Shown here piece after piece: positions 7,632 to 37,594 of a stretch of 37,594 nt of DNA. Positions within the stretch are counted from its first letter, which is position 1, and the number at the start of each line of letters is the position of its first letter. The stretch lies in assembly GCF_000763055.1 (NCBI RefSeq), contig NZ_KN214134.1:595678-633271 (forward strand), written 5' to 3'. A program made the translations under genes and the position numbers. The DNA is from Collinsella sp. 4_8_47FAA (GTDB taxonomy: Bacteria; Actinomycetota; Coriobacteriia; Coriobacteriales; Coriobacteriaceae). The notes below the pieces were generated by a model that worked only from the letters and a program-made list of their open reading frames with translations, made no database searches and was not told the origin of the DNA.

Positions 7632-10437
7632 CTATAGCGAAACGGATCCGTTTTTCTTGATGCGGGCGAGTATGTTTTTGAGCTTGTTAAAGTCGAGCGG
7701 TTTGGACAGATGAGCGTTCATGCCGGCATCGTGTGCCGCCTGGGCGTCTTCGGCAAAGGCGTTGGCGGTGAGCGCGATGATGGGGATATCGGCTGCATCG
7801 ACCTTCTCGCTCAGACGAATCGCGCGGGTTGCCTCGTAGCCGTCCATGTCCGGCATCATAATGTCCATCAGGATCGCGTCGAAGCTGCCGGCGGGATGCG
7901 ATAGGTACAGATCGACGACTTCGTTGCCGTTGGCGGCGCGGGTGACCACGACGCCCTCGGATTCTAACAGCGCCTGGGCAATCTCGGCATTCAATTCGTT
8001 GTCTTCGGCGAGCAGCACGTTCATGTTGGCAAGCGAGCAGTCGAGCGCCTTCTCGACCGTATCCGTCCGCGCCTGGGGGTTCTTGTCGATATCGAGCGGA
8101 ATTTCCACGTAGAACGTGGTGCCCACATGGAGCTCGCTGGTGACTTCGATGGTGCCGCCCATCAGTTCAATAAGCGACTTGACGATTGGCATGCCCATGC
8201 CGGTTCCTTGGAACTTGCTGCGCGCATCGTCACCTTCTTGGGCAAACGGCTCATAGATATGCTTTAATAACTTGGGAGTCATACCAATGCCGGTGTCCGA
8301 AACGCTAAAGCAAAAGAGAGCGCGCCCGTTATCGAGTGGCTTGGCCTTTGAGCTAAAGGTGACGGAGCCGCCGCGCTTGTTGTACTTAATGCTGTTGTCT
8401 AACAGGTTGATCATGATCTGTCGGATATGGGTGGGACTGCCGATCATGTATGGCCCCGTGGCGTACGGCAGACTATTGTCCTGCATTGTGATGCCGTTAC
8501 TGGACGCGCGGAGCTTGCACAGCACCAGTGTGTCGTCGCAGAGCTCTTTGAGGTTAAAAGGCGCATGCTCCAGTGTTAGCTTGCGGTCTTCGATTTTGCC
8601 CATCTCGAGGATGTCGTTGATCAGCGAGAGCAGGTGATTGGCGGCAACGCGCGCCTTGGCACGGCTCTCGCGGGCGACTTGCATGTCGCCTTCCTTCAAT
8701 TCCTCGATCTCGATAAGGCCCAGGATACCGTTGAGCGGCGTACGGATGTCGTGGCTCATGCGCGTGAGGAATGCCGTCTTAGCGGCGTTGGCAGCATCGG
8801 CTTTTTTGCGCTCGGTTCGAGCGCGCACGAGCGCCCAGATGAGCAGGACGATGCCGACCGACAACATACCGATGAGGGTAGCTGCAATGGCGGTGCGGTT
8901 GCGATAAAGGAATTGAAGCGTGTTGGATTCCTGGGCCGTGTACGACGTGGAGGAGAAATTGCTTGCGGAGAGCGATTCTCCGGCATTGATGATGCCCTTG
9001 TTGATGATTCCCAACAGCTCGGGTTTTCCGCGCGAAATCCAGCACGGAGAGCTCACAGGTGTCAGGAAGCTCGGTCGTCTCGCAGTCCTCGAGATCGTAA
9101 CGGTCACCGATGGTTTTTACGCGTGAACTAGGAGCGACGATGCAGTGCGCCGTTCCCTTCCTGAGGGCGTCGAACGCTTCATCGTCGGATTGGTATTCGG
9201 TTACGGTCGCTGCGGGGAACAGACTTTCAAGTGCATTTTTGTTGACAAACGATGATTTGGTACAGGCGATGTTCTGAAGGTCTTTGTTTAGGTTGCTGCC
9301 GGTGTGGATGGCGGTGAGGGATATGGTCCCCAACGATATCGACTGCACAACGCCTGTTTGCTCGGCAAACCAGTAATCTCGGTATACCGGCAGCGCAACG
9401 TCTATGCTTTCCTTTGACAGGGCCTTTGACATCATCTTGTAGCTATCAAAGGCGACGGTTTTGACCGTAATGCCAAATTTATCGTGCAGCGTCGTCGCAA
9501 GCGATGCGAGCGAGCCTTCTATTTTGCTGCCTTCGTCTTCGTTGCAGTAGGGGAGTTTGCCCGTAATGTAGCCGAGCGTGATGGTGTTGTTGTTCGCCTT
9601 GAGCCAGGAACGTTCGGGGCCGTTGAGCGATGATGAACCGCTGTTTTGGGCCGAGTAGTTAGATTTGACTTCGTCGATATAGCGTGGGTTGACGCGGGCG
9701 ATTGACGTCATGGCGGCATTGATGTCGTTCATCAGGTCGGGGCGGCTTTTGGGGACGGCAAAATAGTAGTCACTCGAGCCAACGTAGAACATGGGGGAGG
9801 CATCGGGCGAGGAAATGGTGTCGTTCATGATGACGGCATCGACTTCGTCGTTTGCGAGCGCGTCAAAGAGAACGGAGCCTCCGTCATACTCCCTGTATGT
9901 GCAGGTGATTCCTTCGTTGGTGAGCCACTGCTGGCCAACGAAGGTTTGCATAACGTCGGGGTTGTAGCCGATGGTGAGGCCTTGGAGCGCTTGGGGGTCA
10001 CCCTTGGCCAGATCGTCGCGATCGGGCTTGGCGTAGATGTAGTAGCGCTCGGTGCCCTCGGGGTTCGAGGAAAAGAGCAGCTTTTGGGCGCGTTCCTCGG
10101 AGTAGGAGATGTTGGGCATGAGGTCGATCTCGCCTGCCTCGAGCATGTCCATAAGCTCGGTGAAGGTGCCGGAGACGTATTCGTACCGCCAGCCGGGCGT
10201 GTAGTACGATAGGGTCTGGAGGTACTCGTAACCCCATCCCGAGAGACGCTCGCCGGGGGTGCCGTCCTGGAAGCCCTCGTTGTTGACGAGCCAACCAACG
10301 CGGACCGTCTTGACTGACTGATCGGAGTCGGCGGCAAAGGCGGGGGCGGGCATGATGGTGCTCAGTACGGCAAGCGCGGCAAGCGCGACGGCCAGGGTGC
10401 GATATATAACTGAACGAAGGACAACGGCAGCTCTCAC
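7632..10437 (-). pseudogene. BvgS-like hybrid kinase with two fused solute-binding domains, frameshifted
   Basis: Two frames join into one 934-residue protein if one base is removed from a run of four A (T at 9024-9027 on the plus strand); the second frame resumes as KPELLGIINKGIINAG. Order: signal peptide or TM (about 10-35), a first family 3 binding domain (about 45-250), a second (about 282-480), TM near 513-535, HisKA with the His near 562 (FLTRMSHDIRTPLNGILGL), HATPase (DNSIKYNKRGG, GTGMGMPI), and a receiver with Asp near 858 (LMDIMMPDMDG). The start is GTG 10437, with AGGA upstream. The shift falls in the second binding domain, separating sensor from kinase. It could be a sequencing error, a true mutation or programmed slippage; all downstream motifs are intact. 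Confidence 0.82.
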
Positions 10438-28738: not shown

Positions 28739-28768
28739 GGTATAATTCGGTATAAGTTGGTATAACTA
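28739..28768 (+). promoter_or_regulatory. Three 10-bp tandem GGTATAA repeats
   Basis: GGTATAATTC, GGTATAAGTT and GGTATAACTA follow each other without gaps, one helical turn per unit, ending 32 bases before the AAA ATPase start. The first unit contains TATAAT, a consensus -10. The array could be an operator covering the promoter of the AAA-UvrA pair. Confidence 0.6.
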
Positions 28769-28800: not shown

Positions 28801-29919
28801 ATGAATCCAAATCCCTTTAAGCCAACGGCAGGCAAGCGGCCTCCGATGCTCATCGGTCGAGAGTCGGTCATCGAAGATTTTGAGGAAGGACTCGACAACG
28901 GCGCCGGAGCGCCGGGTAGGCTCATGCTCATTACGGGAAACCGCGGCTGCGGCAAAACGGTTCTCCTGCGGGAGCTGCAACGTCTAGCCAGCGAGCGCGG
29001 ATGGGCGGTTATCTCTGATTCCGCTTCGCTTGGCTTATGCGACCGCTTAGCCGACGCGCTTCGCTCGAATAAACCCGTTGTGACGTCAATGGAGTTCGGG
29101 CCGTCGTTTGGCCGGATGTCGGTCGAGGCGGCGCGAGCAAAGGGCGAGACGTTACGAGGGCTGGTCAACGAGCGCCTCAAGAAGCTCGGTCCAGGCAAGG
29201 GCATACTGTTTGCGATTGACGAGGCGCAATCGGCGTCTATCGAGGAGCTGGCGGCTCTTGCCGTTCTCTATCAGCAAGTGCTCGGAGATCAGGATGCTAC
29301 GGGATTGCCCGATAGCGACCAGCGCGGTCTTGCGCTGGTGTTCGCTGGATTGCCCAGTATGGTTGATGACTTGCTCGAAGAGCCGAGCGTGACGTTTTTG
29401 CGCCGTGCCCAGCAGCGTACGCTGGGGGCGATTTCTTTGCCCAAGGTGCGCGATTCATATATCCAGACGGTCAAAGACGCTGGTCTTTACGTTGACGCGG
29501 AGACGGCGGACCTTGCGGCACGTAAGAGCATGGGGCATCCCTATATGGTTCAGCTGGTGGGCTATTACATGTGGCGCTCTGCTGTCCGGCGTGGCTCTCA
29601 GATCATTGAAAGGTGCGATGTCGAGGATGGCCATGCGGATGCCGTCTCCGAGTTCTACGAAGCGGTTGACGCGCCTCTGTATTACGGGCTGCGCAGTCCA
29701 CAGCGCCTCTTTATCGAGGCCATGGCGGTTGACGAGGGTAAACCGACGCGCATGGCGGACATCATTGAGCGTTGCGACCGCACCCAGAGCTGGGCGAGTA
29801 AATATCGCGCAAGCCTGATTCGCGAGCGCGTCATCGAGGCTGCCGGATACGGCCTCGTCCGGTTTACCGTGCCCATGCTGGGTGAGTATATTCGCGACCG
29901 CATCTTATGGCATGAGTAG
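28801..29919 (+). CDS. AAA-family ATP-binding protein
   Basis: A 372-residue P-loop ATPase. Walker A is GNRGCGKT (46-53, Lys52) and Walker B is LFAIDEAQ with Asp140 and Glu141, followed by a sensor-like LVFAGLPSM. The N-terminus LIGRESVIEDFEEGL and the DEAQ/AGLP pattern are those of Orc/Cdc6-like or STAND-related bacterial ATPases with a C-terminal winged-helix part (from about residue 290, LRSPQRLFIEAMAVDEGK onward), suggesting DNA binding. AGGAGG precedes the ATG. Its last codons overlap possible starts of the UvrA gene. Function unknown; a role in DNA transactions, perhaps autoregulation through the 10-bp repeats upstream, is inferred. Confidence 0.8.
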   Translation: MNPNPFKPTAGKRPPMLIGRESVIEDFEEGLDNGAGAPGRLMLITGNRGCGKTVLLRELQRLASERGWAVISDSASLGLCDRLADALRSNKPVVTSMEFGPSFGRMSVEAARAKGETLRGLVNERLKKLGPGKGILFAIDEAQSASIEELAALAVLYQQVLGDQDATGLPDSDQRGLALVFAGLPSMVDDLLEEPSVTFLRRAQQRTLGAISLPKVRDSYIQTVKDAGLYVDAETADLAARKSMGHPYMVQLVGYYMWRSAVRRGSQIIERCDVEDGHADAVSEFYEAVDAPLYYGLRSPQRLFIEAMAVDEGKPTRMADIIERCDRTQSWASKYRASLIRERVIEAAGYGLVRFTVPMLGEYIRDRILWHE

Positions 29920-29929
29920 GGTGATAAAG

Positions 29930-32425
29930 GTGACGGAACAGAAGATGAGCCCGCAGGCTATCGAGGTGCGTGGCGCACGTGTCCATAACCTCAAGGACGT
30001 CGATATCGATATTCCGCTGGGAAAGCTCGTGGGTGTTGCCGGCGTATCGGGTTCGGGCAAGAGTTCGCTGGCGCTGGGAGTTCTTTATGCCGAGGGCTCG
30101 CGTCGCTACTTGGAAGCACTCAGCACCTATACTCGCCGTCGCCTGACGCAGGCCGAACACGCCCAGGTGGACGAGGTACTGCACGTGCCGGCGGCGCTCG
30201 CATTGCATCAGCGCCCCAGCGTGCCGGGCGTGCGTTCCACCTTTGGCACCATGACCGAGCTCAACAATAGCCTGCGTCTGCTCTTTAGCCGCTGCGCCCA
30301 TCACGTGTGCCCGCATTGCGGGACGCGTGTGGAGCCGAGCCTTAACGTGGCTGCGGGCCTGTCGCTCACGTGCCCCGCATGCGGCCGCGAGTTCTACGCG
30401 CCGAGTGCCGAGGATTTGGCTTTCAATAGCGGCGGTGCGTGCCCTACCTGCGGCGGTACCGGTGTCATGCGCGAGGTGGACGAAGCGAGTCTGGTGCCCG
30501 ACGAGTCAAAGACTATCAACGAGGGTGCGGTGCTTCCCTGGGGCACGCTCATGTGGGACCTGATGAAACAGGTGGCCGGCGAGATGGATGTACGCACCGA
30601 CGTGCCGTTTAACCAGCTCACGCCTCAAGAGCGCGACATCGTGTTCCATGGTCCGGCGGTTAAGAAGCACATTCTCTACGTTCCTAAAAACGGCGAGGGT
30701 GCCACGCCGCTCGATTTCACCTATTACAACGCCGTCTATACCGTCGAAAATGCGCTCGCCAAGGTCAAGGACGATAAGGGCTTAAAACGCGTTGCGCGCT
30801 TTTTGCGCGAGGGAGCATGCCGTGATTGCGGCGGCACGCGTCTCTCCGAGGCTGCGCGCCAGCCCCAGGTGCGCGGTATCAATCTGGCACAGGCGGCGGC
30901 CATGACGCTGGGCGAGGCGATTGAGTGGGTGCGCGGGGTGCCCGCATCCTTGCCGCCCGAGATGCGGCCCATGGCGACGGATATCTGCGATTCGTTTTTG
31001 AGCGCGGCTCGCCGTCTGGTCGACCTGGGTCTCGATTACCTTTCACTCGACCGCGCCGGTGCCACGCTTTCCACGGGTGAGCGCCAGCGTGTGCAGCTCG
31101 CCCGCGTGGTGCGCAACCGATCGACAGGCGTGCTTTATGTGCTGGACGAGCCCTCGATCGGCTTGCATCCGGCAAATGTCGACGGCCTGGTGGGTGTGAT
31201 GCGCGACCTGGTGAGCGACGGCAACACCGTGGTTGTTGTCGACCACGACACGCGCGTGCTGGCGGAAGCCGACTATCTGGTCGAGATGGGCCCCGTTGCC
31301 GGAGCAGGCGGCGGCAATGTGATCGCCGCTGGTACGGTAGACGAGGTCGAGCAATCGCAGGGCAGCCGTATCGCGCCGTTTTTGCGCGCAGAGCCCAAGC
31401 GCTTGCGCCCACAGGTGACTGACGACGAAATGTTCGATCAGGGCCATATCCGCATGGCGACCGATGCCATCCATACCGTCAAACCGCTCGAAGTTGATAT
31501 CCCGCGCGGCCGCTTGGTTGCGGTTACGGGTGTTTCGGGTTCGGGTAAGACGACGTTGGTACTCGAGACGCTCATTCCGGCGCTTAAGGCGCAGGCAGCT
31601 GGTGAGCGCCTGCCGGGGCACGTGCGCTGGGTCGATGCCGAGGGCATTGCGCGTGCCAACCTGATTGACGCTACGCCCATTGGCGCCAATGTTCGCTCGA
31701 CGGTGGCAACCTATGCCGACATCCATGATGAGCTGCGCCGCGCCTTCGCCCGTACGCCCGAGGCCAAGGCGGCCGGTTACAAGGCGGGTGCCTTTAGCTA
31801 CAACACCGGCGCCTTGCGCTGCCCTACGTGCGATGGCACGGGCTCGATATCGCTCGACGTGCAGTTTTTGCCCGATGTCGAGATCGTCTGCCCGGCATGT
31901 CGCGGTTCGCGTTATGCAGACGCGGCTTCGCATATCCATCGCGAGGGCAAGGACGGGAGTCTGCTTACGTTGCCGCAGCTCATGGACATGAGTGTGGACG
32001 AGGCCATCGACGCCACACTGGGACTCAAGAAGGTTCAGACGCGCTTGCAGACCTTGCATGACCTGGGCCTGGGTTATCTCACGCTTGGCGAGCCCACGCC
32101 GGCGCTCTCGGGCGGCGAGGCACAGCGTCTTAAGCTTGCGAGCGAGATGGGCCGCGTGCAGGACGATGCCGTATTTGTGTTCGACGAGCCCACGATCGGC
32201 CTGCATCCGCTCGATGTTCAGGTGTTGCTGAGTGTGTTCGACGGCCTTGTTGCCAAGGGCGCCACGGTTATCGTGATCGAACACGATCTCGACCTTATCC
32301 GCAACGCCGATTACGTGATCGACATGGGCCCGGGCGGTGGTGACGCGGGCGGGCAAATCGTCTGCGCCGGTACGCCGGGTGACATCGCGGCCTGCTCTAC
32401 AAGCATCACCGGTCGCTACCTATAA
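29930..32425 (+). CDS. UvrA-like ATPase (class III type)
   Basis: A protein of about 831 residues with two ABC cassettes and zinc modules, shorter than canonical UvrA (about 940). The first Walker A is GVSGSGKSS near residue 38, and the second near 534. The first signature is LSTGERQRVQLA (about 381), not LSGGE; the second is LSGGEAQRLKLA (about 726). Zinc Cys pairs occur as CPHCG, CPACG, CPTCGG and CPTCDG, CPACRG. Paralogues with LSTGE occur beside resistance loci and may not take part in nucleotide excision. The start is uncertain: GTG 29930 has AGGGTGA upstream, while ATG 29912 and ATG 29945 are alternatives. It follows the AAA ATPase closely. Confidence 0.85.
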   Translation: MTEQKMSPQAIEVRGARVHNLKDVDIDIPLGKLVGVAGVSGSGKSSLALGVLYAEGSRRYLEALSTYTRRRLTQAEHAQVDEVLHVPAALALHQRPSVPGVRSTFGTMTELNNSLRLLFSRCAHHVCPHCGTRVEPSLNVAAGLSLTCPACGREFYAPSAEDLAFNSGGACPTCGGTGVMREVDEASLVPDESKTINEGAVLPWGTLMWDLMKQVAGEMDVRTDVPFNQLTPQERDIVFHGPAVKKHILYVPKNGEGATPLDFTYYNAVYTVENALAKVKDDKGLKRVARFLREGACRDCGGTRLSEAARQPQVRGINLAQAAAMTLGEAIEWVRGVPASLPPEMRPMATDICDSFLSAARRLVDLGLDYLSLDRAGATLSTGERQRVQLARVVRNRSTGVLYVLDEPSIGLHPANVDGLVGVMRDLVSDGNTVVVVDHDTRVLAEADYLVEMGPVAGAGGGNVIAAGTVDEVEQSQGSRIAPFLRAEPKRLRPQVTDDEMFDQGHIRMATDAIHTVKPLEVDIPRGRLVAVTGVSGSGKTTLVLETLIPALKAQAAGERLPGHVRWVDAEGIARANLIDATPIGANVRSTVATYADIHDELRRAFARTPEAKAAGYKAGAFSYNTGALRCPTCDGTGSISLDVQFLPDVEIVCPACRGSRYADAASHIHREGKDGSLLTLPQLMDMSVDEAIDATLGLKKVQTRLQTLHDLGLGYLTLGEPTPALSGGEAQRLKLASEMGRVQDDAVFVFDEPTIGLHPLDVQVLLSVFDGLVAKGATVIVIEHDLDLIRNADYVIDMGPGGGDAGGQIVCAGTPGDIAACSTSITGRYL

Positions 32426-32427
32426 CC

Positions 32428-32462
32428 GAATGTGACAAAGGGACAGTTCCTTTGTCACATTC
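32428..32462. repeat. GTGACAAAGGGA hairpin repeat after uvrA-like gene
   Basis: GAATGTGACAAAGGGA (32428-32443) pairs with 32447-32462 around CAG, with one mismatch, starting just after the stop. The family recurs at 36408-36438 and in part at 28708. It may act as a terminator, though no T-tract follows. Confidence 0.75.
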
Positions 32463-32502
32463 CCGGAAAACCTGTCAGCATCACGCTTTTCTTTTCTAGC
32501 CA

Positions 32503-32537
32503 ATTCTAGTTAAAAGCAGTTAATTACCGTTAAAAGC
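32503..32537. repeat. Left AT-rich decamer array
   Basis: ATTCT followed by AGTTAAAAGC, AGTTAATTAC and CGTTAAAAGC, each exactly 10 bp with TTAA at the same place. The first 15 bases, ATTCTAGTTAAAAGC (32503-32517), recur in direct orientation at 36352-36366. Confidence 0.7.
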
Positions 32538-32678
32538 TAGCATGTTGTCGACGTAGCGCTTGAACAGCTTGCGTCTGAGGGCCAAAATGACCTCATCCCA
32601 TTCGCGAAATTTGCACGCCCTATAGTGAGTGGGCTCTCGCTTGAGCTGATGCTGCCAAGAGGCGGCCGATAGGGGCAA
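32520..32678 (-). pseudogene. Possible 52-codon gene remnant antisense of the resolvase leader
   Basis: A minus-strand frame without ATG or Shine-Dalgarno reads HQLKREPTHYRACKFREWDE and continues to LRRKLFKRYVDNMLAFNGN before a TAA inside the decamer array. Its composition, with Trp, Cys, Tyr and many charged residues, looks coding. The upstream end is a stop at the resolvase start. It might be the C-terminal relic of a gene cut by insertion of the module. I recognise no family, and chance cannot be excluded. Confidence 0.25.
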
Positions 32679-32680
32679 TT

Positions 32681-33316
32681 ATGGACAATCGAATCTTTGG
32701 GTATGCGCGTGTCTCTTCCGCGGACCAGAACTTGGATCGCCAGTTAGACGCACTGGGAAGGTTTCCCGTTCAACGGGGTCAGATTTACGCTGACAAGGCA
32801 AGTGGTAAGAACTTTAGACGTCCCCAGTATCAGCGTCTTCTTCGCAGGTTGCGCGAGGGTGACGTTCTCGTGATCAAAAGTATCGACCGTTTGGGTCGCG
32901 ATTATCGTGAAGTCCTCGATGAATGGCGACGCATCACGGTGGATAGACACGCTGCCATCGTAGTGCTTGATATGCCGTTACTCGATACACGCGAGCAGCC
33001 CGATGGCATCACGGGAACGTTCATGGCGGATCTGGTCCTTCAGATCTTGAGCTACGTGGCGCAGCTGGAGCGCGAAAACATCAAGCAACGCCAGGCGGAG
33101 GGTATCGCGTCGGCGCGCCTGCGTGGCGTGAGATTTGGAAGGCCGGCGCTCGAGCGTCCGGATAGCTATAACGATGTCATCAAATCATTCGAAGGAGGTG
33201 AAGTTACGAGGCGAGAGGCCGCAACGCTCCTGAACGTCAGCGCATCGACGTTCGATCGTTGGAGACGGGCGGACACGAACGGATATGACCGTTCGCCGTC
33301 TGTCCGTCCTCTTTAA
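32681..33316 (+). CDS. Serine recombinase (resolvase/invertase family)
   Basis: A 211-residue small serine recombinase. The N-terminal catalytic domain has the nucleophile Ser12 in FGYARVSSADQN, then YADKASGKNFRRPQYQRLL, VLVIKSIDRLGRDYREV with the conserved Arg pair, and a long E-helix (MADLVLQILSYVAQLERENIKQRQAEG). The C-terminal helix-turn-helix spans about residues 150-195 (GRPALERP and VTRREAATLLNVSASTFDRWRR). Such enzymes resolve, invert or, less often, transpose DNA at short sites. AGGGG precedes the ATG. It is at the left end of a low-GC module framed by decamer arrays, which suggests it acts on the module. Confidence 0.92.
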   Translation: MDNRIFGYARVSSADQNLDRQLDALGRFPVQRGQIYADKASGKNFRRPQYQRLLRRLREGDVLVIKSIDRLGRDYREVLDEWRRITVDRHAAIVVLDMPLLDTREQPDGITGTFMADLVLQILSYVAQLERENIKQRQAEGIASARLRGVRFGRPALERPDSYNDVIKSFEGGEVTRREAATLLNVSASTFDRWRRADTNGYDRSPSVRPL

Positions 33317-33323
33317 CTAGACA

Positions 33324-33442
33324 TTTTGACGAGGGGAGTTTATTGCACAGAGCCCACTCCTTCCCTCGATGTTTATCCAGTTCACGCCCTGGAACCAAAT
33401 AGTGCCACCGCGTTGCCAATTCGTCTGCTTTTTGACGAGGGG
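33324..33442. repeat. Direct repeat TTTTGACGAGGGG
   Basis: Two exact 13-bp copies, 33324-33336 and 33430-33442, between the resolvase and the lipoprotein genes. Each holds TTGACG, a good -35, so one or both may be promoter parts; they might also be recombinase sites. Confidence 0.5.
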
Positions 33443-33477
33443 TTATGAGCCGTAACGTCAATCGAAGGGAAATAGTC

Positions 33478-34293
33478 GTGAAACGAAATGCTACTAAAAA
33501 GCAGCCCGTGATGGGCTTGCTTGTTCTACTAATCTGTTCTCTGGGATTTATCTCGGCCTGTTCTCAGAATGCTACAAACTTAGATAAACCGAAATATGTC
33601 GATGACAAGGCGATGAATGTTATCGCCGCCGGGTTTGAGAAAAGGTCCGACGTCATTGAGTCTAATGCAAACGATGACGATCCTCATTCAACCGAGAATA
33701 TCCAGGAAGCGATTAAAGCAGAGATCGAGAACGACAAGGAGCTCGAGAACGCCAGGTTCAAGGATTCCAGGATGCAACAGGACGTAATCACGTATCTGAA
33801 TCTGCTTGATGACCAGCTTAAGGTGACCGAGGACTACTCGCAATCGTCTGCGGATTATTACGAAGAGTGGAATAAGGTCTACGATAAACGGTCTGCGCAG
33901 CTCAAGAAGCTTGTTGATAATTACGGGCTGGAAGTAGGGGAAAAATATAAGGATGATTTCAACGACTTAATTAAGAATGGAAAGTCCGTAGCAGAGAAGA
34001 CCCGCTATGAGGATGCCATCAACAGTTTGATTCAGGGAGCAAATTTCGAAAAATCGGATGACAGTTACGGTCTGTATACGTATACGGCGGTAGTTGAGAA
34101 CACTTCTGGTATATCGTTCTCTAACGTCAGCCTGACACTTGCTCTCTATGATGCAGATGACATCAAAGCGGAGGAGACCTATGCGGACACTTCTTCGTGG
34201 GCGCCGGGCGAGAAAGTCAAGTTCGAGGCAATGTCCGATGTGGACGCTGCACGCGTTGTCGCATCTGTTTCCAGCTACGATGTAAATAAATAA
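33478..34293 (+). CDS. Lipoprotein with FxLyD-like C-terminal domain
   Basis: A 271-residue protein. A basic start (VKRNATKKQ), a hydrophobic stretch and lipobox ISAC with Cys28 mark a lipoprotein. Residues 40-185 are highly charged and probably helical (KELENARFKDSRMQQDVITY). The C-terminal 70 residues (YTYTAVVENTSGISFSNVSL, then LALYDADD and WAPGEKVKFEA) match the FxLyD beta-sandwich pattern of surface proteins. The GTG at 33478 has GAAGGGA seven bases upstream; an ATG at 33445 has GAGGGG only two bases away. Lower GC than the core genes. It probably sits on the outer face of the membrane. Function unknown. Confidence 0.8.
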   Translation: MKRNATKKQPVMGLLVLLICSLGFISACSQNATNLDKPKYVDDKAMNVIAAGFEKRSDVIESNANDDDPHSTENIQEAIKAEIENDKELENARFKDSRMQQDVITYLNLLDDQLKVTEDYSQSSADYYEEWNKVYDKRSAQLKKLVDNYGLEVGEKYKDDFNDLIKNGKSVAEKTRYEDAINSLIQGANFEKSDDSYGLYTYTAVVENTSGISFSNVSLTLALYDADDIKAEETYADTSSWAPGEKVKFEAMSDVDAARVVASVSSYDVNK

Positions 34294-34302
34294 GTATTGC
34301 AC

Positions 34303-34348
34303 GAAAGGGGCGGGTTGATCGGTATTGAATGGTTGGCCCGCCCGTTTC
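34303..34348 (+). terminator. Terminator-like hairpin after the lipoprotein gene
   Basis: GAAAGGGGCGGG (34303-34314) pairs with CCCGCCCGTTTC (34337-34348) with one mismatch. The bases to 34506 hold a possible promoter for the next gene but nothing I could define. Confidence 0.6.
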
Positions 34349-34506
34349 ATATCATTTATTGAGCAACATGTGCTACGACGAATATGTATTATTTCGGATT
34401 GCAAACAACCGACCTCGTCTAAAGACGCGCTGAAAACGACAATCTGGGCATGAGACGTAACCTTTGTTAATTTCTTAAATAACAGGGAGTTTGAAAGGGA
34501 TAGGGA

Positions 34507-35178
34507 ATGGATGAGATGAAGAAGGGCATGGGGTCACTGAAAGCGAGACTCGGGAGAATTCTGACGAAACCCAAGGTATTCATCGCGGGCTTGGCGCTTG
34601 GCGGGCTGATTGTAGCTGTACTTTTTATTAGCATCTTTAATAACGGCAAAGCTGCGGGTGCAAAAGAAGCGGCCCCCAATACGCTCTCCCCGTCGGTCGT
34701 GTTTGAACGTATTGCTTCCCAGAATGAGATGGTTTCTGCATCGCAGAACTATACGATTGTCGATAAGGTGACAGATACCAATAGGTTCTTCGATTGGTTT
34801 GATATCCCGTTTACAGAAAACAGTTTTTGGTATCGCTATGTTGGAACCATTAAGGCGGGCGTGAATCTCGAGACGGCAGAGATACATACAAACAAGAAGA
34901 AGGTGACCATTACGATGGATGAGCCTTATGTAATCTCAAACACGCCGGATATGAAGAAATCGGGTGCTCTCGAGGAACGCAACAACATTCTCAATCCCAT
35001 TGAGGTCAAAGACGTCACGGCGTTTGAAGCGCAGTGCAAGGAGCGGAGTGAAAGCGAGGCCATCAAGGATGGCAACCTGCTCGAAGAGGCTCAGGCGAAC
35101 GCCGAAGCAAATATCCGTGCGATGTTCAACTCGGCATTTGGCGATGAATATACGGTTGATTTCGACTATCGGAAATAG
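34507..35178 (+). CDS. DUF4230-family membrane-anchored protein
   Basis: A 223-residue protein with a basic N-terminus, one membrane helix at about residues 24-46 (VFIAGLALGGLIVAVLFISIF) and an external domain. The domain has the DUF4230 layout: a helix (LSPSVVFERIASQNEMVSAS), strands with YRYVGTIKAGVNLETAEI and KVTITMDEPYVISN, then a helical end rich in Glu and Ala (LLEEAQANAEANIRAMF). The family has no established function. AAAGGGATAGGG lies ahead of the ATG. The next gene starts nine bases after the stop and has AGGAGG in between, so the two are one operon. Confidence 0.82.
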   Translation: MDEMKKGMGSLKARLGRILTKPKVFIAGLALGGLIVAVLFISIFNNGKAAGAKEAAPNTLSPSVVFERIASQNEMVSASQNYTIVDKVTDTNRFFDWFDIPFTENSFWYRYVGTIKAGVNLETAEIHTNKKKVTITMDEPYVISNTPDMKKSGALEERNNILNPIEVKDVTAFEAQCKERSESEAIKDGNLLEEAQANAEANIRAMFNSAFGDEYTVDFDYRK

Positions 35179-35187
35179 GAGGTCACT

Positions 35188-36249
35188 ATGGAGGATAAAG
35201 ACGATCTAGCTGTTGTCGAAAGGGAGGAGCTGTCGCGACATAAGCAGAGTTTTGATATCCGTAAGGCCGCTGCTGGGTTGGTTGATGGCGCCGGAAGCGC
35301 GATGGCGGGCGCGGTTGCAACCGTACAGAAAGTTGCCGATGGTGCAATGCGTGCTGCAACCCCGATGGTCGATGACGCCTTGGCAGCTATTGCTGATGCG
35401 GCCGATGGTGCGGCAGGTGCTGCTGCGGATATCGGTGACGCCGTCAACGATTGGGCGTACCAGCAGCAGCTTAATAGATACAGGCCGGTAACCAAGGAGA
35501 CCTATCAGAGTCCTTCATTTTATTTGCCGAATATGATTCGAATTGTTGACGGAAATGAGCGTCGGGGCATCGACGCCTGTAGGGATGCTATTGGTTGGCT
35601 GGATACCGTTAAGGGTACGCAGATTTTCAATCTGTACCGCGAGGCAATCGGGGATAGCGAATTGTCTTTCTATCCTAAACCATCTCTTTATTCCACATAT
35701 TACATAGATGCTTTTGATCGGTCTCGCTTTGTTGACCTTGACTCTTATTTCGCAACCATGCAACAAGACAAGATGGCCGAGTTGAGGCGGATTGCATTCA
35801 TGCTTGGCGCGAAGCGCTGCAAGCTGGAGGTGACGGAGTACGAGGAAACTCGGCGAGGCCGCCAGGTTAAGGGAAATGCCAAGGCGGGAAAGAGGGGCTC
35901 GGTTCGAATCGACGGTTCCTTGAGCGATTCAACGAGAAATGAGAAGAAAATTCTGTTTACACAGGAATTCGAGGGTGACATGGTTCCGCAGCGCCCTGAG
36001 CTCCACTGGTATGCCCATGACTCAGATATTCTCTTGTTAATTGAGACGAGATGTGGTGGAGAGGATAAAAACAAGGCGAAGAGCTATCGGGTCGAATTGA
36101 AAAGTGAAACGACCATGACCATGTCTGTATCACTTGCTATGGCTATCGACGAGGCATGCAGCAAACTGAACATAAGGGCGAATTCGAGCCTGACAAGCCA
36201 AGCTAAGCGAGAACTCCGGCAGTCGTTTGTATTTGAAGTTGAATTCTGA
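35188..36249 (+). CDS. Unrecognised 353-residue protein with Ala/Gly-rich N-terminus
   Basis: I do not recognise this protein. Residues 24-92 are rich in Ala, Gly and Asp (VDGAGSAMAGAVATVQKVAD), likely amphipathic helix able to lie on or span a membrane. After a linker, residues 105-353 look folded: an ordered mixed region, RRIAFMLGAKRCKLEVTEYE, a basic loop (RRGRQVKGNAKAGKRG) that breaks it near 235, FEGDMVPQRPELHWYAHDS, and a C-terminal SLAMAIDEACSKLN. There is no signal peptide. AGGAGG precedes the ATG. It follows the DUF4230 gene by nine bases, so the two products likely act together at the membrane. Confidence 0.8.
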   Translation: MEDKDDLAVVEREELSRHKQSFDIRKAAAGLVDGAGSAMAGAVATVQKVADGAMRAATPMVDDALAAIADAADGAAGAAADIGDAVNDWAYQQQLNRYRPVTKETYQSPSFYLPNMIRIVDGNERRGIDACRDAIGWLDTVKGTQIFNLYREAIGDSELSFYPKPSLYSTYYIDAFDRSRFVDLDSYFATMQQDKMAELRRIAFMLGAKRCKLEVTEYEETRRGRQVKGNAKAGKRGSVRIDGSLSDSTRNEKKILFTQEFEGDMVPQRPELHWYAHDSDILLLIETRCGGEDKNKAKSYRVELKSETTMTMSVSLAMAIDEACSKLNIRANSSLTSQAKRELRQSFVFEVEF

Positions 36250-36351
36250 TGTGTGGGGACCTTTTGCTGCGGGGTTCCTGTCCTTTACGGGATGGAAGCG
36301 TATAAACCCATACGGTGCAACTCAGTAAAAGTTACTAATATACTGGCATCT

Positions 36352-36396
36352 ATTCTAGTTAAAAGCGTTTAAAAACGGTTAATTCCATTTAAATCG
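36352..36396. repeat. Right AT-rich decamer array
   Basis: ATTCT, then AGTTAAAAGC, GTTTAAAAAC, GGTTAATTCC and ATTTAAATCG, four 10-bp units with TTAA in phase. The first 15 bases are identical to those of the left array at 32503. Confidence 0.7.
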
Positions 36397-36407
36397 GTAG
36401 TTGCAAT

Positions 36408-36438
36408 AGGTGGCAAAGGGACAGTCCCTTTGCCACCT
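36408..36438. repeat. AGGTGGCAAAGGGA hairpin repeat
   Basis: A perfect 14-bp stem with loop CAG, of the same family as 32428-32462. It adjoins the right copy of the 71-bp repeat. Confidence 0.75.
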
Positions 36439-36442
36439 TAAT

Positions 36443-36513
36443 GCCAAAACCAATTTGTCAAGAGCTAGAGGGTTTGAAAATCTGCCATTTCTACCCCGTC
36501 CCCTAATGGCAGA
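36443..36513 (-). repeat. 71-bp composite repeat, right copy
   Basis: Inverted relative to 28626-28696. It lies five bases beyond the trmL stop, in the same orientation to that gene as the left copy has to the TetM-like gene. Confidence 0.85.
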
Positions 36514-36517
36514 TTTG

Positions 36518-37117
36518 CTACATGCCGGCAAAGCCTGTTTGGCGCAGAGCTTCGTAGAGGACGATGGCAGCGCTGTTGGATAGGTTGAGGGCGCTGATGC
36601 GGTAGTCGTCCGGGTTGACGAAGTTGCCGCAGATATCCTGCCGAAGGATGGTTTCGTGGCCGTGCTCGGTATGCCCGAGCGATTCCTCGTGGGCTTCCCA
36701 GGCTTCGGCGTTGTCGAGTGAGTCACAATCGCGCAGCATCGGGATGCGCTCGCAGCACGTGGGCGCTGCGGCGAGTAGCTTCTCGGGAATGCCCGAGCTC
36801 TCGCTGCCAAAGACCAAATAGTCACCGTCGCGGTAGGTGCTTTGCGCATAGGTTCTGCGCGCCTTTTTGGTCAGCAGATGCAGATGCTCGTCGGTAGGGG
36901 AGAGGCCGTTGCGCGCAAGGAAATCCTCCCAGCTGGCATAGGTCGTCACGTCCAAGTTTTGCCAGTAGCCCAGTCCGGCGCGACGCACCGTCTTGTCGTC
37001 GAGCGAAAACCCCAGCGGCTCCACCAGATGCAGGCGGGCGCCGGTAACCACGCAGGTGCGGCCGATATTGCCCGTATTGGCCGGAATCTCGGGCGCATAC
37101 AGCACAATGTTGAACAT
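36518..37117 (-). CDS. trmL: tRNA (cytidine/uridine-34-2'-O)-methyltransferase TrmL
   Basis: A 199-residue SPOUT methyltransferase that methylates the wobble ribose in leucine tRNAs. Motif 1 is NTGNIGRTC (about residues 14-22), motif 2 is FGSESSGIPEKLL and motif 3 is ALNLSNSAAIVLYEALRQ, which form the trefoil-knot SAM pocket. E. coli TrmL has 157 residues; here about 40 extra are inserted between motifs 2 and 3 (IPMLRDCDSLDNAEAWEAHE and on). The ATG at 37117 has AAGGAG upstream; the longer frame to 37210 runs into IS-derived sequence and is rejected. Confidence 0.9.
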   Translation of the reverse strand: MFNIVLYAPEIPANTGNIGRTCVVTGARLHLVEPLGFSLDDKTVRRAGLGYWQNLDVTTYASWEDFLARNGLSPTDEHLHLLTKKARRTYAQSTYRDGDYLVFGSESSGIPEKLLAAAPTCCERIPMLRDCDSLDNAEAWEAHEESLGHTEHGHETILRQDICGNFVNPDDYRISALNLSNSAAIVLYEALRQTGFAGM

Positions 37118-37161
37118 GAATCTCCTTGGCTCAGAACGAAAAACCACCACGAAGGGGACAG

Positions 37162-37185
37162 TGAACTGCGCCCCGAAACTTGGAC
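37162..37185. repeat. Possible IS3-family terminal end
   Basis: TGAACTGCGCCCCGAAACTT lies 38 bases beyond the transposase stop and starts with TG, as IS3-family ends do. The other end is outside the window. Confidence 0.35.
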
Positions 37186-37199
37186 TGAACAAATAGCGA

Positions 37200-37594
37200 C
37201 TACGCCGCAAGGGCCCGGTTCCGGAACTCCTCCGGCGTCAGGCCCTTCAATCTTACCTGCCTGCGCCGCGTGTTCCAATGGTCTATGTACTCCTCCAGGT
37301 CGCGCTTGAAGTCCCCGAAGCTGCCCCACTCCCTGCCGCGGTAGAACTCGTCCTTCACGTGGCCGAAGAGCTGCTCGGTGGCGGCGTTGTCGATGCAGTT
37401 CCCCTTGCGCGACATGCTCTGGGTGATGCCCGCCCCCTCCAGCCTGGAGGCGTAGGACTCGTGCTGGTACTGCCAGCCCATGTCCGAGTGCATGGTCGGC
37501 GCCGCCCCGTCGGGCAGGGCCTCGAGGAGCCGGTCGAGCATCCTGTGCTGCGTGGGGCGAGGTCCGGCGGAGGTCGATATGTCGCTCGCCACGA
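37200..37594 (-). CDS. IS3-family transposase (OrfB), C-terminal part
   Basis: Open from the window edge to a TAG at 37200-37202, about 131 residues. It has the rve_3 core of IS3/IS150 OrfB: HSDMGWQYQHESYASRLEG, SMSRKGNCIDNAATEQLFGH with the last acidic residue of the DDE triad, and NTRRRQVRLKGLTPEEFRNR. It catalyses IS transposition. The first part and any OrfA lie outside. Its base composition is higher in GC than that of the low-GC module. Confidence 0.88.
   Translation of the reverse strand, partial: VASDISTSAGPRPTQHRMLDRLLEALPDGAAPTMHSDMGWQYQHESYASRLEGAGITQSMSRKGNCIDNAATEQLFGHVKDEFYRGREWGSFGDFKRDLEEYIDHWNTRRRQVRLKGLTPEEFRNRALAA

Follow-up and report, generated by a model that had tools for sequence, protein, structure and literature searches.

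Two AT-rich arrays of phased 10-bp repeats enclose four genes in the genome of Collinsella sp. 4_8_47FAA, and the locus raises the question of whether the arrays are the ends of a mobile unit or, if they are not, what they are and how the genes between them come to differ among strains. We analyzed a window of 37,594 nucleotides (the whole stretch from position 595,678 to 633,271 of contig NZ_KN214134.1), in which an initial annotation had described a low-GC module at 32503 to 36396, framed by the arrays and encoding a resolvase, a lipoprotein, a DUF4230 protein, and a protein without a known domain. The coordinates, the four open reading frames, all on the plus strand, their lower guanine-plus-cytosine (GC) content, and the 15-bp repeat common to the arrays (ATTCTAGTTAAAAGC) were confirmed, and the segment was found to vary among strains; the arrays did not prove to be the boundary of the variable unit, and the interpretation first given to the module was therefore supported only in part. 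The reading that we place slightly on the probable side is that of a strain-variable spot with orphan ATPase arrays, resolvase-linked exchange of cargo, and cargo that serves membrane surveillance or exclusion. An ATPase would bind the phased array that belongs to it, with its subunits probably lined up head to tail, and so control its own gene; the resolvase would swap cargo by way of a repeat-bounded element behind its gene; loss of whole alleles would occur between flanking palindromes; and the cargo would comprise outward-facing proteins, namely DUF4230 and a lipoprotein (or DUF6591 protein), and a membrane-associated 353-amino-acid or EcsC protein inside the cell.

Strain variation between two conserved genes

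The spot lies between a UvrA-like gene on the left (29912 to 32425, plus strand; it scores below the UvrA cutoffs, and its start was chosen here, the list of open reading frames giving 29882) and, on the right, a minus-strand methyltransferase gene that we take to be TrmL-like (36518 to 37117). These flanks were located in 43 genomes of the genus, the UvrA-like gene in 30 of them at an E value of 1e-150 and the TrmL-like gene in 32 at 1e-60, and alleles were counted in the 21 genomes, that of 4_8_47FAA included, in which both flanks were neighbors on one contig. Six of these sites were empty, 11 carried only an ATPase gene, and 4 carried the resolvase and cargo. The flanks of the empty sites are separated by 29 bp in five genomes (G058, G017, G010, G018, and G026) and by 111 bp in a sixth (G011), so that the segment, suspected of being mobile from its sequence alone, is indeed strain variable. 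The ATPase-only alleles measure 1.26 to 1.34 kb, with a single ATPase gene on the minus strand; that of G023 (locus L166) has an in-frame stop. Full alleles are those of 4_8_47FAA (G000), G013, G004, and G063, to which the C. aerofaciens record L081 adds another, and G006 is also filled, its spot being divided over two contigs (L022 and L075). A resolvase at least 80% identical to that of the module is present in 5 of the 43 genomes, 4_8_47FAA included, and all five have a DUF4230 gene at the spot (in G006 the two genes sit on separate contigs). The resolvase is thus accompanied by cargo, but 10 of the 15 Collinsella genomes with DUF4230 have no such resolvase.

From comparison with the empty sites, the boundary of the variable unit is placed at or near two palindromes, one at its left edge (32428 to 32462) and one close to its right edge (36408 to 36438), and not at the arrays. 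The core of one palindrome is present in the 29-bp empty sites. A tree of the flanks was built from 21 rows and 1,180 columns, G006 being left out because its spot is split between contigs, and 5 of its 17 inner branches have good support. The three states change eight times on this tree, a count that has no shuffled-label baseline and comes from short flanks that may themselves recombine. Well-supported sisters of differing state are full G063 and ATPase-only G030 (100/99), full G004 and empty G018 (100/98), and empty G010 and ATPase-only G002 (97/97). To the right of the cargo, G063 and L081 carry a piece of 182 to 221 bp that is 85 to 86% like the 3' end of the UvrA-like gene (about 9030 to 9330 in L081 and about 5900 to 6200 in L201) and that is preceded, on a reading by eye, by remnants of a second array and ATPase gene, so that duplication and deletion shape the spot as well. 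Two other Collinsella (L141 and L142) also have a related resolvase (55 to 56%) after the UvrA-like gene; the gene that comes next encodes a very large protein of VWA or SpaA type, and the TrmL-like gene is on another contig.

Cargo changes at a repeat behind the resolvase gene

The first gene of the module (32681 to 33316, plus strand) encodes a 211-amino-acid small serine recombinase of the resolvase/invertase type, with a Pfam Resolvase catalytic domain (E value of 7.5e-32; 110.9 bits against a gathering score of 23.3) and a weak C-terminal match to HTH_23 (residues 175 to 201; 22.2 bits, below the cutoff of 24.6). Behind its stop codon, a conserved stretch holds two plus-strand copies of the 13-bp repeat TTTTGACGAGGGG, at 33324 to 33336 and 33430 to 33442; the window contains no other exact copy. 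In the filled alleles compared, DUF4230 is accompanied by a DUF6591 protein or an FxLYD lipoprotein, and mostly by a third gene. The lipoprotein is of type A in 4_8_47FAA and G013 and of type B, with a protein 58 to 59% identical to that of type A, in G004, G063, and L081, and the cargo of G006 has a protein that matches DUF6591 in part (E value of 1.9e-9; 72 of 228 positions). The third gene encodes the 353-amino-acid protein in 4_8_47FAA, G013, and G004 and EcsC in G063 and L081; none follows DUF4230 in G006. These three cargo types part no more than about 3 bp from where the second repeat ends, and the change is abrupt, about 126 bp past the resolvase stop. For 11 pairs of alleles with differing cargo, identity was 0.80 to 0.98 up to the second repeat and 0.30 to 0.52 beyond it (L081 and G006 are 98% alike before the break point and 30% after it), whereas 4 pairs with the same cargo had identities of 0.84 to 0.95 on its left and 0.86 to 0.98 on its right. 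The break behind the resolvase looks like an attachment point of the neighboring recombinase, and this exchange point is both the most interesting local result and the least certain one.

Several observations weigh against an enzymatic exchange. The allele of G004 is a recombinant, in which a type B lipoprotein and DUF4230 are followed by some 40 bp that resemble the beginning of EcsC and then by the final 53 bp of type A DUF4230 and the 353-amino-acid gene; its right-hand junction falls inside a coding region and appears to be of illegitimate or homologous origin. In none of the five module genomes was an exact 12-base repeat core found behind the cargo, and 21 of the 28 cores detected in 22 of the 43 genomes lie elsewhere than behind the module resolvase (7 cores), compared to 9 matches for the reversed pattern. 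A copy of the repeat with 3 mismatches stands 13 bases behind the 353-amino-acid gene (36262 to 36274) and may be there by chance, as the window contains 18 such matches where about 10 are expected. With three cargo types, moreover, as few as two events could account for the common breakpoint. A passive hypervariable spot is an alternative explanation that we regard as plausible while stopping short of calling it probable: homologous recombination between the flanking palindromes and conserved genes would import and delete content, the resolvase would be a passenger, and the common breakpoint would be the edge of its conserved region. The palindromes near both edges, the palindrome core in the empty site, the apparently decayed second copy of array, ATPase, and UvrA-like sequence on the right in G063 and L081, the scar in G004, and the lack of an exact partner site behind the cargo all suit such a spot, but the breaking of three cargo types within about 3 bp at the end of an exact direct repeat does not, and neither does the resolvase reading frame, which is intact in all five genomes with at least 80% identity.

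The best family of the resolvase is DNA invertase (PHROG 125; E value of 8.9e-55), with a weak match to Mpi. Unlike with those recombinases, no convincing inverted crossover pair bounding an invertible segment was found at 31000 to 37594, using a tool that misses poorly matched or short sites. A core resolvase paralogue (60 to 62% identical) shows no comparable break, and in 12 of the 13 other genomes compared the DNA behind it stays alike over 688 to 1,500 bp. Among loci L113 to L125, 6 of the 13 genomes cease to match that of 4_8_47FAA about 690 bp behind the paralogue. The spot may also be compared with the integron platform, in which the recombinase gene stands beside a fixed point and the cargo behind it depends on the strain. 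The sharp cargo break at a 13-bp repeat near a recombinase gene would be a likeness, shared by the three cargo types; unlike in integrons, the recombinase is a serine and not a tyrosine recombinase, one to three genes are exchanged with no cassette array, and in the five module genomes no matching exact site was found behind the cargo, only the 3-mismatch copy at 36262. A literature search on Collinsella cassettes found nothing on point.

The cargo and its partners

The three cargo genes, all on the plus strand, encode a 271-amino-acid FxLYD lipoprotein (33478 to 34293; the start is taken as the GTG at 33478, the list of open reading frames giving 33445), a 223-amino-acid DUF4230 protein with a hydrophobic N-terminal stretch (34507 to 35178), and the 353-amino-acid protein (35188 to 36249), whose position EcsC occupies in other alleles. 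Their GC contents are 0.46, 0.48, and 0.51, and that of the resolvase gene is 0.56, all lower than the 0.587 of the window; the flanking genes have 0.63 and 0.61. Profile matches above the cutoffs upheld the first annotation of the lipoprotein (FxLYD NF038353; E value of 5.1e-17; 61.5 bits against a curated cutoff of 23) and of DUF4230 (PF14014; E value of 1.3e-23; 84.2 bits against a gathering score of 27), as they did that of the resolvase; residues 25 to 28 of the lipoprotein read ISAC, which resembles the lipobox motif. The 353-amino-acid protein matched nothing better than an E value of 0.1 in four profile libraries, and its single-sequence structure model was unusable (mean pLDDT of 39). 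A PADLOC scan gave no convincing match among the module proteins, the sole listing being AbiEi for DUF4230 at an E value of 0.018.

The 353-amino-acid protein was found in 3 of 58 relatives, 4_8_47FAA included, and always at this spot. Among 297 Coriobacteriales genomes, the lipoprotein family occurs in 24, DUF4230 in 107, and EcsC in 33 (26 over the cutoff). Counting against a fixed cargo set, the lipoprotein and DUF4230 genes are adjacent in only 6 of the 24 lipoprotein genomes, and in 18 there is no DUF4230 match within 2 kb. The conditions under which the initial annotation would have counted as refuted thus gave a mixed outcome: these counts and the DUF4230 genomes that lack the resolvase speak against it, whereas the TTAA arrays described below are rare. 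The pair also occurs in L077, a phage-labelled fragment from human feces, with an SPFH/SHOCT protein in front, and in G033, where its neighbors are a MerR-like regulator and a GTPase that weakly matches DUF697. At 20 further DUF4230 loci, including the G063 locus of the same type as the module, partners of this kind were seen in 5 (15 neighboring proteins from 9 of the loci were scanned by Pfam and the others by BLAST against the module proteins only): DUF6591, zinc-ribbon, SPFH, and SHOCT genes in L191, DUF6591 and zinc-ribbon genes in L192, and EcsC in L185, L186, and L201. DUF4230 genes are often adjacent pairs in Coriobacteriales, for example in L187 and L188.

The SPFH, EcsC, and SHOCT partners point to membrane upkeep, and we favor membrane surveillance as the putative function of the cargo, with a possible role against phage. 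For the membrane-stress operon pspA-ydjGHI of Bacillus subtilis, which these partners bring to mind, excerpts of one report describe membrane proteins that anchor an SPFH protein and PspA (PMC8581546). Some Coriobacterial cargo relatives likewise neighbor SPFH, SHOCT, and zinc-ribbon genes; unlike in that operon, neither PspA nor SPFH is among the four module genes, which have the 353-amino-acid protein or EcsC instead, and SPFH occurs only in the relatives L077 and L191. For DUF4230 itself, one study reports no significant biofilm defect after deletion (PMC13041782). Literature searches found no mention of DUF6591 and nothing on point for EcsC with SPFH and defense.

That the cargo is specifically an anti-phage superinfection-exclusion set, whose lipoprotein would block DNA entry as Ltp does, appears unlikely. 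The ltp gene of phage TP-J34 excludes superinfecting phage and adjoins the integrase in the lysogeny module, according to excerpts of its description (PMC3952083), and a homologue 29% identical to the module lipoprotein lies between the repressor and the integrase in a matching region of Streptococcus phage Javan263, beside a DUF3644/restriction-like gene. These likenesses, that both proteins are surface lipoproteins, and the variable presence of the cargo among strains are offset by the different domain and size of the module protein (FxLYD, 271 amino acids against 142), the position of another phage homologue (L078) among what by eye are structural genes, the outcome of the PADLOC scan, and the partners that suggest membrane upkeep. 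Annotated phages include three records of the lipoprotein and none of the 353-amino-acid protein or DUF4230; plasmids yielded no relative of the 353-amino-acid protein or the lipoprotein, and viral contigs no confirmed relative of the lipoprotein, the 353-amino-acid protein, DUF4230, or the ATPase.

The arrays as probable remnants of a lost ATPase gene

Both arrays, the left one at 32493 to 32543 and the right one at 36348 to 36396, are assigned to the minus strand, the left one reading leftward; both contain ATTCTAGTTAAAAGC (at 32503 and 36352), and they are 84% alike over 31 bp. In the 2.28-Mb genome of 4_8_47FAA, the pattern TTAA-N6-TTAA-N6-TTAA has 3 matches at 2 places, which are the two arrays only, and its reversed control has none; across the genus it occurs in 7 of 43 genomes, compared to 2 of 43 for the control. 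The order in G013 is UvrA-like gene, ATPase gene on the minus strand, array, resolvase, and cargo. Where G013 has its ATPase promoter array, the window has its left array, beside the same resolvase leader, and the ATPase gene is gone. The right array shares 81% identity over 43 bp with the array in front of the ATPase gene in G013 and G006 (E value of 2.75e-5). From this position and this identity, we read both arrays as orphan ATPase promoter arrays; they look like leftover control regions from an AAA+ ATPase gene still present at this spot in relatives but lost from 4_8_47FAA. A TTAA array also stands immediately before a 47% identical ATPase gene in G031. An explanation of the arrays as generic AT-rich spacer was ruled out by the rarity of the TTAA triplet and by the statistics given below for DNA upstream of ATPase genes. 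Comparison across alleles likewise ruled out the arrays as element ends, and a mobile element with the arrays as its ends or attachment sites, as first proposed, is highly improbable: the 4_8_47FAA genome does have arrays on both sides with 15 bp in common, but G013 and G063 have one array, inside the variable segment, G004 has the right one only, none is present in the six empty sites, and such arrays resemble the ATPase promoter array and precede genes of the ATPase family elsewhere.

A phased array precedes most ATPase genes of the family

The ATPase lost from the module matches AAA_16 (at the cutoff) and a winged helix-turn-helix, and its family occurs in 34 of 43 Collinsella genomes (E value of 1e-10) and 166 of 297 Coriobacteriales genomes (1e-20), with up to six copies counted per genome and five in that of 4_8_47FAA. 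We surveyed 64 ATPase loci (those returned by the searches, 20 hand-picked regions, and L023), grouped at 80% identity into 38 clusters, for self-match of the DNA at fixed lags. In the 250 bp upstream of the ATPase genes, the mean best 40-bp score at lag 10 was 24.0, versus 15.9 (standard deviation of 2.2) upstream of 415 control genes; scores were likewise raised at lags 9, 19, and 20, and at most slightly at the remaining lags. A threshold of 24 of 40 at lags 9, 10, 19, or 20 within 160 bp upstream was reached by 34 of the 38 clusters, by none of the 38 in downstream DNA, by 11 of 455 regions upstream of control genes (1 of the 58 with a GC content below 0.5), and by 13 of 1,900 first-order shuffles; at lags 7, 13, 16, or 23 it was reached by no cluster. 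One of the 11 control matches was the ATPase itself, and ten were GC-rich matches at lag 9. The array unit is clade specific, being TTAA or TTTAG/CTTAG in the clade of the module and CTTGCAAAA, TCAA, GTATAA, or GCTATA in others. Array similarity tracks protein identity (Mantel r of 0.318; 0 of 2,000 permutations; 35 clusters, omitting L182, L183, and L215, which have no lag-10 array), and the DNA 300 to 450 bp upstream, used as a control, gave an r of -0.06 (1,511 of 2,000 permutations). The pairing of ATPase and array is the most general result obtained.

Other observations count against a strict pairing. Four of the 38 clusters fall below the threshold, plain shared descent may account for at least part of the correlation between array and protein, and the TTAA array of G025 (L021, about 7720 to 7760) does not stand beside an ATPase of the module family. 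In annotated mobile DNA, where the family counts 113 records from plasmids and 1 from a phage, distant homologues on 10 plasmids (10 of 20 listed records, of the 113) and one phage fragment had no lag-10 excess over shuffles; a few of them had 9- or 19-base spacings. A literature search on phased or tandem repeats before AAA+ ATPases found nothing on point.

A second example lies in the window itself, to the left of the spot, where a plus-strand ATPase paralogue 33% identical to the lost one (28801 to 29919) overlaps the UvrA-like gene and is preceded by a GGTATAA-type 10-bp array (28739 to 28768, plus strand, detected by TRF), a type of array that also stands before homologues in clusters L184, L220, and L221. 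At the other edge, the minus strand of 37200 to 37594 encodes a partial transposase that is presumably IS3-like.

Excerpts of a report on haloarchaeal Orc1/Cdc6 proteins describe several paralogues whose genes adjoin origin recognition boxes (PMC3528665). Likenesses to that system, as those excerpts present it, are an AAA+ domain with a winged helix, several paralogues per genome, genes that lie by paralogue-specific repeats, and gain along with new genomic content. Unlike Orc1/Cdc6, the module ATPase family is bacterial, its arrays are short direct units at 9/10-bp steps near the start codon, and it scores far below the cutoff (15.7 bits against 181.3 for the Orc1/Cdc6 model TIGR02928), with no sign of origin function, for which no test was made. 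A Foldseek search with a poor model of the ATPase (pLDDT of 50.5) returned Cdc6/Orc1 first, at an E value of 1e-5 and a TM of about 0.3, which is a hint only, and a sequence search of solved structures gave no useful match.

Significance

We tentatively propose that Coriobacteria have AAA+/winged-helix ATPases of Orc1/Cdc6-like build, each paired with a co-evolved phased 9/10-bp recognition array, such that paralogues in one cell would read different arrays and units would be gained and lost strain by strain; here, one such unit would sit at the spot together with a serine-recombinase platform by which envelope modules are swapped. The pairing of ATPases and arrays offers dozens of paralogue-site pairs from which to learn how AAA+ winged-helix proteins read phased repeats and how paralogues keep off one another's sites. 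The cargo ties FxLYD, DUF4230, DUF6591, and the 353-amino-acid protein, all without an assigned role, to one testable envelope function, and the exchange point, if it is enzymatic, would be a serine-recombinase counterpart of the integron platform in a gut bacterium.

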